Source of the DNA: Candidatus Polarisedimenticolaceae bacterium
GTDB lineage: Bacteria; Acidobacteriota; Polarisedimenticolia; Polarisedimenticolales; DASRJG01
Assembly: GCA_036376135.1 (NCBI GenBank)
Contig: DASVAW010000078.1
Location: 1-38,865, forward strand
Reading direction: 5' to 3'
DNA: 38,865 bases
Position 1 is the first letter of the stretch. Each line of letters starts with the position of its first letter. Made by a program: the position numbers and the translations under genes. The notes under the pieces were generated by a model. That model saw nothing but the letters and a program-made list of their open reading frames with translations. It was not told the origin of the DNA and made no database searches. Of this stretch, positions 20,176 to 23,439 are shown one piece after another.

Positions 20176-21536
20176 CCCCCGCCCCCCTCGAAGAAGGTCC
20201 GGTGCAGCGAGCGCACGACGTCGGCGAGCCGCGTTTCGGCGACGAGGGCCGAGACGCTCGTCCCCGAGCCGCCGAGCGAGACGAGCGCCGGATCGTGCTC
20301 GGCGAGCGCGGCGAGCACGCGGCCCCGGATCCGACCGTCTGTGGCGAGCCCCGAGCCGACGATGCAGACGATCCCCTGCTCCGGGTGGATCTCCACCTCG
20401 ACCCCGTCCCCCGCGCGCGTCGCGAGACGCTTCGCGTCGAGCCGCCCGGCCACCGCGGCCGCCACGCCGACCTCGGACGAGACCACGAGGTCGGGAACGA
20501 CCCCTTCGGCCTCGAGCGCCGCGAGCGCCTGGGGCAGGAACCCCGCGTCGATGCGCATCCGCCGCGACCGGAGCCGAACCAGCGTCGCCCCGCCGCGGCT
20601 GGCGACCGCGACGAGCGGGGGCGCCCCTTCCCCGGGCTCGGCGACGACGACGGTCCCCGCCCCCTGCGGCCGCAGCGAGTTCAGCACCCGCACCGGGATC
20701 CCGCGCGCCACCGCAGGCGCGATCGCCGCGGGGTGCAGGACCTTCGCCCCGTAGAACGCCAGCTCCGCCGCCTCCGCGAACGCCACGCGCGCGCACACCC
20801 GGGCCTCGGGACAGACGCGCGGATCGGCGCTGAGGATCCCGTCGACGTCGGTCCAGATCTGGATCTCCGAAGCGAGAAGGGCGGCACCCAGGACCGCTGC
20901 GGAGGTGTCGGAGCCCCCGCGCCCGAGGGTCGTCGTGTGCCCCTCGCGCGTCGCGCCGACGAACCCGCCGACGACGGGGATCTCGCCCGCGTCGAGCGCC
21001 TCCGTCACGAGCGGTCTCGCCCGCTCTCCGGTGGCCTCGACGTCGGCGGTCGCCGCACCGTGGCGGTCGTCGGTGACGACGAACTCGCGGGGATCGACCC
21101 ATCGCGAGGGGAGCCCCGACGCCCGGAACGCCGCCGCGACGATCCGGGAGGACATCAGCTCCCCGAACGCCAGGAGCGTGTCCGACGCCCTCGGCGTCCC
21201 CTCGCCCAGAAGCCGCACCGAGCGCAGGAGCTGGCGCAGATCCTCGAGCATCCCGTCCACCTGGAGGGTCAGGTCGTGACGCGCGCCCGCGGGCTCCACC
21301 GCCCCCGAGATCGCCCAGCGGTGCCGCCGGGCGAGGTCGGAGAGGAGCGGCTCGATCCCCTCGCGGTCCCCCGCCTTCGCGCACGCGACCGCCCGCGCGA
21401 GCAGGTCGGTCACCCCCGCGAGCGCGGAGACGACGACGAGCGGCCGCGACCCGGCGCGCGCCTTCACGATCGCGGCGACCCCGAGGATGCGTTCCGCATC
21501 CGCGACGGAGGTGCCGCCGAACTTGAGGACGATCAC
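20172..21536 (-). CDS. lysC: Aspartate kinase (monofunctional, with C-terminal ACT domains)
   Basis: 454 residues from GTG 21536, overlapping the asd stop in GTGA. It phosphorylates aspartate, the first step of the lysine/threonine/methionine branch. VLKFGGTSVADAERILG begins the amino-acid kinase domain; FGELMSSRIVAAAF, VGGFVGATREGHTTTLGRGG and DVDGILSADPRVCPEA are the other kinase blocks; VAFAEAAELAFYGAKVLHPA follows. Two ACT domains occupy about 300-454, with LVSLGGSGTSVSALV in the second, the usual allosteric site. Length and layout match the E. coli LysC type. No homoserine dehydrogenase fusion is present, and the operon composition suggests a lysine/DAP role. Confidence 0.95.
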   Translation of the reverse strand: MIVLKFGGTSVADAERILGVAAIVKARAGSRPLVVVSALAGVTDLLARAVACAKAGDREGIEPLLSDLARRHRWAISGAVEPAGARHDLTLQVDGMLEDLRQLLRSVRLLGEGTPRASDTLLAFGELMSSRIVAAAFRASGLPSRWVDPREFVVTDDRHGAATADVEATGERARPLVTEALDAGEIPVVGGFVGATREGHTTTLGRGGSDTSAAVLGAALLASEIQIWTDVDGILSADPRVCPEARVCARVAFAEAAELAFYGAKVLHPAAIAPAVARGIPVRVLNSLRPQGAGTVVVAEPGEGAPPLVAVASRGGATLVRLRSRRMRIDAGFLPQALAALEAEGVVPDLVVSSEVGVAAAVAGRLDAKRLATRAGDGVEVEIHPEQGIVCIVGSGLATDGRIRGRVLAALAEHDPALVSLGGSGTSVSALVAETRLADVVRSLHRTFFEGGGG

Positions 21537-22576
21537 CGGCCGCTCCGCCTCGGCACCTTTCCGAGGGAGGCGAACAGCTCGGCGTTCATGAGCGTCGCCC
21601 CCGCCGCCCCGCGCACGGTGTTGTGGGACAACACCTCGAAGCGCAGCGAGAAGACCGGGCAGCGGCGCACGCGACCGACGACGGCGCTCATCCCGCCGCC
21701 GGTGTCGCGATCGAGGCGCGGCTGGGGCCGGTCCACTTCGGAGCGCACGACGATCGGCCGTTCGGGGGACGACGGCAGTCCGCGATCGGCGACGTCCCCG
21801 CGGAACGAGGCGAACGCCGCGACCGCCTGCTCGGGCGTCGCGTCGCGCTCCAGCTCGACCGACACCGCCTCGAGGTGCCCGTCGATCGTCGCCACGCGGT
21901 GGCAATGCGCGGAGACGAGAATCGGCGCCCCGAGCATCTTCCCGATCTCGGATTCGAGCTTCTCCTCCTCCCCGCCGATGTAGGGCACGACGTTGTCGAC
22001 GACGTCGAGCCCGCGCGGACCGTCAAGGCCGGCCCCGGAGAGCGCCTGCATCGTCGAGACGATCACGCGCTTCACGCCGAACTCCCGATGGAGCGGCGCC
22101 AGCGCCAGCACGAGCCCCGTCGCCGAGCAGTTGGGGTTGGTCGCGAGGAAGCCGGGCCAGCCGGTTCGCCTGCGCTGGGCATCGACGAGCGACGCGTGCG
22201 CGGCGTTGACCTCGGGGACGAGCAACGGGACGTCGGGGGTCATGCGAAACGCCGACGCGTTGCTCAGGACCGCGATCCCGTGGGCGGCGAGAGCCGGCTC
22301 GACCTCCTTCGCCGTCGCGGCGTCGAGCCCGGAGAGGACGACGTCGCACCCGTCGAGGTCGCCGGGGACGCATCTCCCGACGCGAAGCCCGGCGACCGCG
22401 GAGGGCATGGGCGTCGGCAGACGCCAGGTCGTCGCTTCGGCGTAGGTCTTGCCGGCGGACCGCTCGCTCGCCGCAACCGCGACGAGGTCGAACCAGGGAT
22501 GCCCTTCCAGGCGCTGGACGAGGCGCTGGCCCACGAGCCCCGTCGCCCCCACGATGCCGACTCGGTAACGTTCCAT
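21533..22576 (-). CDS. asd: Aspartate-semialdehyde dehydrogenase, archaeal/fungal type
   Basis: 347 residues from ATG 22576; the frame extends further upstream without homology. It reduces aspartyl phosphate to aspartate semialdehyde. NADP-binding motif VGIVGATGLVGQRLVQRLE; catalytic cysteine in ATNPNCSATGLVLALAP; the segment DNVVPYIGGEEEKLESEIGK and the His in SAHCHRVATIDGHLEAV mark the archaeal/fungal-type Asd branch rather than the E. coli or common bacterial branches. It is the first gene of the six-gene operon. GATAAT ends only 6 nt before the ATG and there is no Shine-Dalgarno sequence, so the operon mRNA is probably leaderless. Confidence 0.95.
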   Translation of the reverse strand: MERYRVGIVGATGLVGQRLVQRLEGHPWFDLVAVAASERSAGKTYAEATTWRLPTPMPSAVAGLRVGRCVPGDLDGCDVVLSGLDAATAKEVEPALAAHGIAVLSNASAFRMTPDVPLLVPEVNAAHASLVDAQRRRTGWPGFLATNPNCSATGLVLALAPLHREFGVKRVIVSTMQALSGAGLDGPRGLDVVDNVVPYIGGEEEKLESEIGKMLGAPILVSAHCHRVATIDGHLEAVSVELERDATPEQAVAAFASFRGDVADRGLPSSPERPIVVRSEVDRPQPRLDRDTGGGMSAVVGRVRRCPVFSLRFEVLSHNTVRGAAGATLMNAELFASLGKVPRRSGR

Positions 22577-22609: not shown

Positions 22610-22615
22610 TACACT
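22610..22615 (+). promoter_or_regulatory. Putative -10 box for the small Cys-rich gene and gph
   Basis: TACACT at 22610-22615, about 25 nt before ATG 22640, in the same gap as the divergent asd promoter. The same local pattern (a TAnnnT box followed by a short C/G-rich leader and a Shine-Dalgarno sequence) precedes the genes at 15783, 25508 and 31787. Confidence 0.42.
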
Positions 22616-22639
22616 TCCGGCTCGGTTCCGGAGGCCCCC

Positions 22640-22804
22640 ATGACGGACGACTTCTTCTGCTTGCGATTCGCGGTCTGGTACCCCTCGTTCGACTGCGCGT
22701 TCCGGACGAAGTTCCAGACCTGTCCGAGCTGCTCCAACTGCGATCAGGGGCGCTTCAACCTGAAGCGCCACGCGGCGGTGCTCCCGCGTGAAAGGGGCTG
22801 GTGA
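22640..22804 (+). CDS. Small cysteine-rich protein (54 aa), family not recognised
   Basis: 54 residues from ATG 22640, preceded by GGAGG (22630-22634) and a TACACT box. The chain begins MTDDFFCLRFAVWYPSFDC and continues with FQTCPSCSNCDQGRFNLKRH. Five cysteines occur, of which CPSC and SNC give a CxxCxxC cluster like a metal-binding knuckle; aromatic residues are abundant and there is no signal peptide. The stop TGA overlaps the gph GTG start by 4 nt (GTGA), so the two are translationally coupled. Composition, promoter, ribosome-binding site and coupling argue for a real gene despite its size. Zinc or iron-sulfur binding is inference; the function is unknown. Confidence 0.75.
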   Translation: MTDDFFCLRFAVWYPSFDCAFRTKFQTCPSCSNCDQGRFNLKRHAAVLPRERGW

Positions 22805-23439
22805 AGGTTCGCGGCATCGTCTTCGACCTCGACGGCACGCTCGTCGATTCGTTCGAGGCGATCGCCCGCTCGGTCAACGCCGCGCGAGCCGGCCTGAGCC
22901 TTCCCCCCCTCCCGAAGGCGGAGATCACGAAACACGTCGGTCGCGGACTGCACCTTCTCCTCGGCGACCTCGTCGGCCCCGATCTCGCCGATCGCGCCGT
23001 CGTCCTCTATCGCGAGGACCACGCGCGCACCTACCTCGGTCACACGAAACCCCTTCCCGGCGCCCTCGAGACGGTGCGGCGTCTCCACGAAGCCGGCATC
23101 CGGATGTCGGTCGCGAGCAACAAGCTCTCGACCTTCAGCCGCGGCATCCTCGACCACCTCGGGTTCGGGCCGTACCTCACCACCGTCGAAGGCCCCGACA
23201 CGGCGGGAGCGACGAAGCCGGATCCCGCGATGATCGGGCGCTGCCTGTCCGCGATGGGCGTCGAGGCGCCGGAGGCGATCTACGTCGGCGACATGCCGCT
23301 CGACGTCGAGAGCGCGCGGCGGGCCGGGGTGGCGGTCGTGCTGGTGGCGACGGGAGCGGTGGCGGCGGAAGTGCTCGAGGCGACCGGGGCCGAAGTGGCC
23401 GCGGACCTCGGCACGTTCGCCCGACGGGTGACACGCTAG
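22801..23439 (+). CDS. gph: HAD-superfamily phosphatase, phosphoglycolate phosphatase-like
   Basis: 212 residues from GTG 22801, overlapping the small upstream gene. HAD motifs: FDLDGTLVDSFEAIARS (nucleophile and acid/base Asp), VASNKLSTFSRGIL (motif II Ser), the conserved Lys in GATKPDPAM, and YVGDMPLDVESARRAGV (motif IV). A helical cap of C1 type lies between motifs I and II. The closest described group is Gph, which removes 2-phosphoglycolate formed in DNA repair; related nucleotide or sugar phosphatases look the same at this level. It converges with the PDZ gene, with only 7 nt between stops. Confidence 0.88.
   Translation: MKVRGIVFDLDGTLVDSFEAIARSVNAARAGLSLPPLPKAEITKHVGRGLHLLLGDLVGPDLADRAVVLYREDHARTYLGHTKPLPGALETVRRLHEAGIRMSVASNKLSTFSRGILDHLGFGPYLTTVEGPDTAGATKPDPAMIGRCLSAMGVEAPEAIYVGDMPLDVESARRAGVAVVLVATGAVAAEVLEATGAEVAADLGTFARRVTR

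Follow-up and report, generated by a model that had tools for sequence, protein, structure and literature searches.

The gene described here lies at positions 22640–22804 on the forward strand of the window, by which we mean the whole 38,865-nucleotide stretch of DNA that was analysed. It begins with an ATG at 22640, ends with a TGA whose last letter is 22804, and encodes a protein of 54 residues with the translation MTDDFFCLRFAVWYPSFDCAFRTKFQTCPSCSNCDQGRFNLKRHAAVLPRERGW, which we call the four-cysteine protein. A GGAGG motif precedes it, and the following gene starts with a GTG at 22801 that overlaps the stop codon (GTGA); the initial annotation pointed out both, as well as the strings CPSCSNC and QGRFNLKRH, which are indeed present in the translation. 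The divergent genes upstream read by eye as asd, lysC, and dapB, and asd recurs at 9 of the 35 homologous loci, in identical order in all of them. The features of the locus are as follows:

21533–22576, reverse strand: aspartate-semialdehyde dehydrogenase gene (asd), divergent and upstream, named by eye from its sequence
22610–22615, forward strand: TACACT, corresponding in degenerate form to the extended −10 box of relatives, placed by upstream comparison
22630–22634, forward strand: GGAGG, ribosome-binding site assigned from the sequence
22640–22804, forward strand: gene of the four-cysteine protein, stop codon included, with homologues in 35 of 41 genomes of the class and under purifying selection
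22649–22768, forward strand: conserved 40-codon core, D4–R43, ungapped in 35 of 35 homologues
22801–23439, forward strand: HAD-IA hydrolase gene, downstream with the GTGA overlap, adjoining at 11 of the 35 loci with a homologue

Searching with the single sequence gave matches in 35 of 60 related genomes, every one of them in the same class, and none of the matches contains an in-frame stop; the 40 codons of the core are free of gaps and stops throughout. Between the four closest pairs of homologues pN/pS is 0.05–0.09, and it is 0.05–0.33 across the 25 closest pairs; taken over all 595 pairs it has a median of 0.54 and rises to at most 1.40, with synonymous sites saturated. Two shadow ORFs taken from the region of the HAD gene, one of them antisense to it, were our controls. 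The antisense ORF matched 21 of 40 other genomes far more weakly (best E 1e-8), with in-frame stops in 16 of the 21 non-self matches, and the second matched 6 of 40. The ORF at 22640–22804 is a genuine gene, and the four-cysteine protein is under strong purifying selection. The excess of synonymous change that the initial annotation had proposed to look for is present in the closest pairs, and neither of the grounds that it had named for giving the gene up, a want of homologues that keep the cysteines or a disrupted frame, applies: 35 of 35 homologues are stop-free, with four cysteines invariant.

The initial annotation also placed a promoter box ahead of the gene. A scan for the sigma-70 consensus found no promoter and missed TACACT, so that the box is no match to that consensus, but TACACT corresponds to an extended −10 box in relatives. 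Boxes resembling TGnTATACT occur upstream of homologues within the window's order, and for 18 of the 35 homologues TGnTATAMT with at most one mismatch is found within the 200 nt upstream; the figure for random stretches of that length is 1.8% (a background of 4000, mostly coding). The window's own TACACT is a weaker form and lies outside these 18 matches. Comparison among relatives thus supports a putative promoter belonging to the gene itself.

With a profile, A1, built on the family, one match each at E ≤ 0.001 was found in 35 of 41 genomes of the class (85% of those examined), including 23 of the 24 of good quality (completeness of 90% or more, contamination of 5% or less). Among 396 genomes drawn from the phylum, none of the 355 from other classes had a match at E ≤ 0.001; a first draw of 297 genomes from the phylum had given 30 matches, every one inside the class. 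This spread, with no in-frame stop in 35 matches, is far beyond chance, as the initial annotation had argued for the composition of the ORF. Matches at 0.001 < E ≤ 0.1 occurred in 24 of the 355 other-class genomes, about the chance level, and five of these, inspected by eye as candidate distant homologues together with one match in G017, appeared to be noise. The four-cysteine protein is near-universal and single-copy in one class of the Acidobacteriota. The six class genomes that lack it (G015, G017, G020, G033, G039, and G040) returned only short fragments in a lax search, so either the gene is not indispensable in every member of the class or these assemblies are incomplete. All three genomes examined from families f9 and f11 (G015, G017, and G020) are among the six, and their assemblies are small, at 2.0–2.7 Mb.

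Patterns made from one sequence were also run over 84,980 genomes and returned four loci, all in genomes already in our set and three of them named Acidobacteria; because the patterns were built on a single sequence, homologues in other phyla may have escaped the scan. Searches of plasmids, phages, and viral contigs found no relative, and on this ground we rejected a mobile or phage origin. Acidobacteria bacterium Mor1 is a member of subdivision 22. It lives on Moorea producens and is described as not having been cultured separately (PMC5006271). The GTDB class Mor1 is named Candidatus Polarisedimenticolia (PMC8528874), and the window is probably from this class, in the order of Mor1.

Alignment of the 35 homologues reveals 11 invariant positions, F5, C7, W13, Y14, D18, C19, R22, C31, C34, Q36, and G37, with D4, T27, and N40 nearly so. 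The conserved cysteine pattern is C-x11-C-x11-C-x2-C, and the codons concerned are these:

22658–22660, forward strand: invariant C7, in the first β strand of the model
22694–22696, forward strand: invariant C19, in helix 1 of the model
22721–22723, forward strand: C28, first cysteine of CxxCxxC, a cysteine in only 3 of 35 homologues
22730–22732, forward strand: invariant C31, from the alignment
22739–22741, forward strand: invariant C34, directly N-terminal to helix 2 of the model

The CxxCxxC cluster on which the initial annotation laid weight is therefore incidental, C28 being so rarely kept, and we set it aside as a motif. Zinc ribbons of the Ruc type have two CxxC pairs and bind one zinc that oxidation releases; here only C31-x2-C34 is a conserved pair, and C7 and C19 stand singly. 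By eye, none of the 35 sequences contains a signal peptide or membrane stretch. The net charge of the core ranges from −2 to +5 and is positive in 26 of 35.

The four-cysteine protein belongs to no Pfam, NCBIfam, or PHROG family. The window's protein matched no Pfam or NCBIfam family at E ≤ 1, and across the 35 members of A1 the best E values were 0.028 (Pfam), 0.029 (NCBIfam), and 0.021 (PHROG), with each family appearing in one to three members. A sequence search of the PDB likewise matched no family. The literature that we consulted on small or cysteine-rich proteins of Acidobacteriota, class signature proteins, and small zinc proteins, in part at the level of titles, yielded nothing on this family. 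The view of the initial annotation that the protein is real and undescribed is supported, and related genomes conserve its cysteines.

We modeled the protein from the alignment with AlphaFold2 (pLDDT 90.6, pTM 0.73). The predicted order of elements is a β hairpin (strands 5–7 and 12–14), a helix (16–25), the CxxC, and a second helix (35–43). A member from another family, 41% identical, gave a model with matching elements and a short third helix (pLDDT 86.4). Foldseek searches of the PDB and BFVD with the two models produced no convincing match, and VIA-align produced none with a Z of 2 or more (5 chains). Four cysteines, a β hairpin plus helix, and a CxxC before a helix recall zinc-ribbon and treble-clef fingers. 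The predicted protein differs from these fingers in placing single cysteines in strand 1 and helix 1 instead of using two CxxC knuckles, and no profile or fold of this kind matched it. The modeled fold is possibly new, and we go no further than this because small domains are hard for fold searches.

Our preferred reading, held with moderate confidence, is that the four-cysteine protein is a cytosolic mini-protein whose four cysteines hold one metal ion, most likely Zn2+, and that its role is that of a small adaptor or regulator. The chain would fold as the predicted β hairpin, helix, CxxC loop, and second helix, with C7, C19, C31, and C34 as ligands of a single structural ion. The apparent lack of a signal peptide or membrane stretch means that the cysteines should be reduced, making metal ligation likelier than disulfides. 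W13-Y14, D18, R22, Q36-G37, and N40 would form an invariant surface, the putative face to which a partner common to all these bacteria binds. That partner may be another protein or a nucleic acid, the latter not strongly indicated given how widely the charge of the core varies. The protein would be neither an enzyme nor part of the neighboring phosphatase. In favor of this reading count the single copy in 35 of 41 class genomes, the 11 invariant columns with all four cysteines among them, the low pN/pS of the closest pairs, and the positive net charge of most cores. One confident fold predicted for two members only 41% identical is consistent with a metal-binding mini-protein; for the zinc site itself, the structure searches found no supporting relative, solved or predicted.

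A bolder version of this reading, which we consider rather unlikely, would make the protein a class-defining metalloprotein with an unseen mini-fold, fixed in core machinery (transcription, translation, or envelope control, for example) at the origin of the class and without counterpart in other bacteria.

The distribution of the four-cysteine protein resembles that of the FESNov synapomorphic families, which are families of no known function, near-ubiquitous in one class, absent elsewhere in the sample, and low in dN/dS (PMC10849945). As set out in that source, a class-level synapomorphic family covers no less than 90% of its clade and is 100% specific to it (PMC10849945). Coverage here is below the strict 90% over all class genomes and exceeds it among those of good quality; specificity is complete across the other classes of the phylum sampled, with other phyla covered through the narrow pattern scan only.

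The four invariant cysteines could instead form a redox switch, a Cys4 zinc site that, as in Ruc or Hsp33, opens on oxidation, upon which the protein binds clients or a regulator. Ruc (Rv0991c) is a small bacterial protein with a domain of about 50 residues, four cysteines, and a variable hydrophilic C terminus, and the four-cysteine protein shares this general build (PMC7448276). In the same account Ruc is a redox-regulated zinc ribbon that occurs across phyla and adjoins chaperone genes (PMC7448276). The C-x11-C-x11-C-x2-C spacing is unlike that of a Ruc-type ribbon, however; the protein is confined to one class in our sample; and no chaperone gene was recognized among the identified neighbors, which are part of all neighbors. 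The core is also predicted to be well ordered, and the invariant W, Y, D, R, Q, and G exceed what a bare switch would need. We regard a switch as improbable.

It is decidedly doubtful that the cysteines bind an iron–sulfur cluster, with the protein serving as a sensor or a small carrier of electrons. Four invariant cysteines would suffice for such a cluster, but neither the ferredoxin nor the rubredoxin profiles of Pfam and NCBIfam match the protein, and its cysteine spacing differs from that of ferredoxins and rubredoxins.

The genomic neighborhood bears on a further proposal, that the protein is a cofactor or regulator of the phosphatase encoded downstream, to which the initial annotation had tied it. 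The GTGA overlap in the window favors such a role, and the HAD gene adjoins in 11 of 35 loci, in ten genomes of the order and in G013, representing one family outside it. In the remaining 24 loci the HAD gene is not near, and other genes take its place; most of those 24 genomes carry a HAD relative elsewhere, and 39 of 41 class genomes have one, among them genomes that do not encode the small protein. Neighbors were taken from a home-made ORF caller that misses and overcalls genes, and were identified by scanning one representative per type with Pfam. In f5 and G010 (11 loci) the next co-directional called gene encodes a homologue of adenosine deaminase; at 6 of 7 f8 loci, as called, an amidohydrolase gene takes that place; and in f12 an FG-GAP/ASPIC protein and then an amidohydrolase follow in 4 of 4. 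Such variety across lineages indicates that the gene travels without a fixed partner and makes a phosphatase cofactor highly unlikely; the lack of HAD linkage beyond the 11 loci favors a stand-alone role. The name gph for the gene at 22801–23439 could not be kept either: against the phosphoglycolate phosphatase equivalogs it scores 107.1 bits for a curated cut-off of 225 and 101.7 for 180, and among the best 25 of its 52 matches it passes only general HAD-IA models.

That the ORF is spurious, as its short length and the abundance of shadow ORFs in this GC-rich DNA might suggest, has a negligible probability against stop-free conservation in 35 genomes, purifying selection, a single copy per genome, invariant cysteines, and shadow-ORF controls that behave otherwise.

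An ORF of 54 residues can be a core gene even though none of the profile libraries searched contains it, and proteins of this kind, near-universal, single-copy, and conserved in a class yet missing from profile libraries, point to biology that model organisms do not reveal. The four-cysteine protein offers a compact marker for its class and perhaps a new fold, and at about 50 residues it is small enough for synthesis, structure solution, and direct testing.

Two further observations concern the surroundings of the gene. At 16 of 35 loci (f5, f8, and f12) a response regulator with a GGDEF domain is encoded no more than 4 kb away. These regulators fall into two groups, only about 32–37% identical to each other and differing in orientation, and for the low identity we set them aside as a linked partner.

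Upstream of the core in two families, a TAGAAT or TACAAT hexamer stands 6–9 nt before an in-frame ATG. This arrangement is present in all seven members of f8 (L032, L035–L039, and L088; for L032 the count rests on the second-ranked hexamer) and all four of f12 (L082, L083, L085, and L086), with hexamer and ATG about 130–165 nt upstream of the core. The close spacing suggests that the transcripts may be leaderless in f8 and f12, with the protein carrying an N-terminal extension of about 40 residues.
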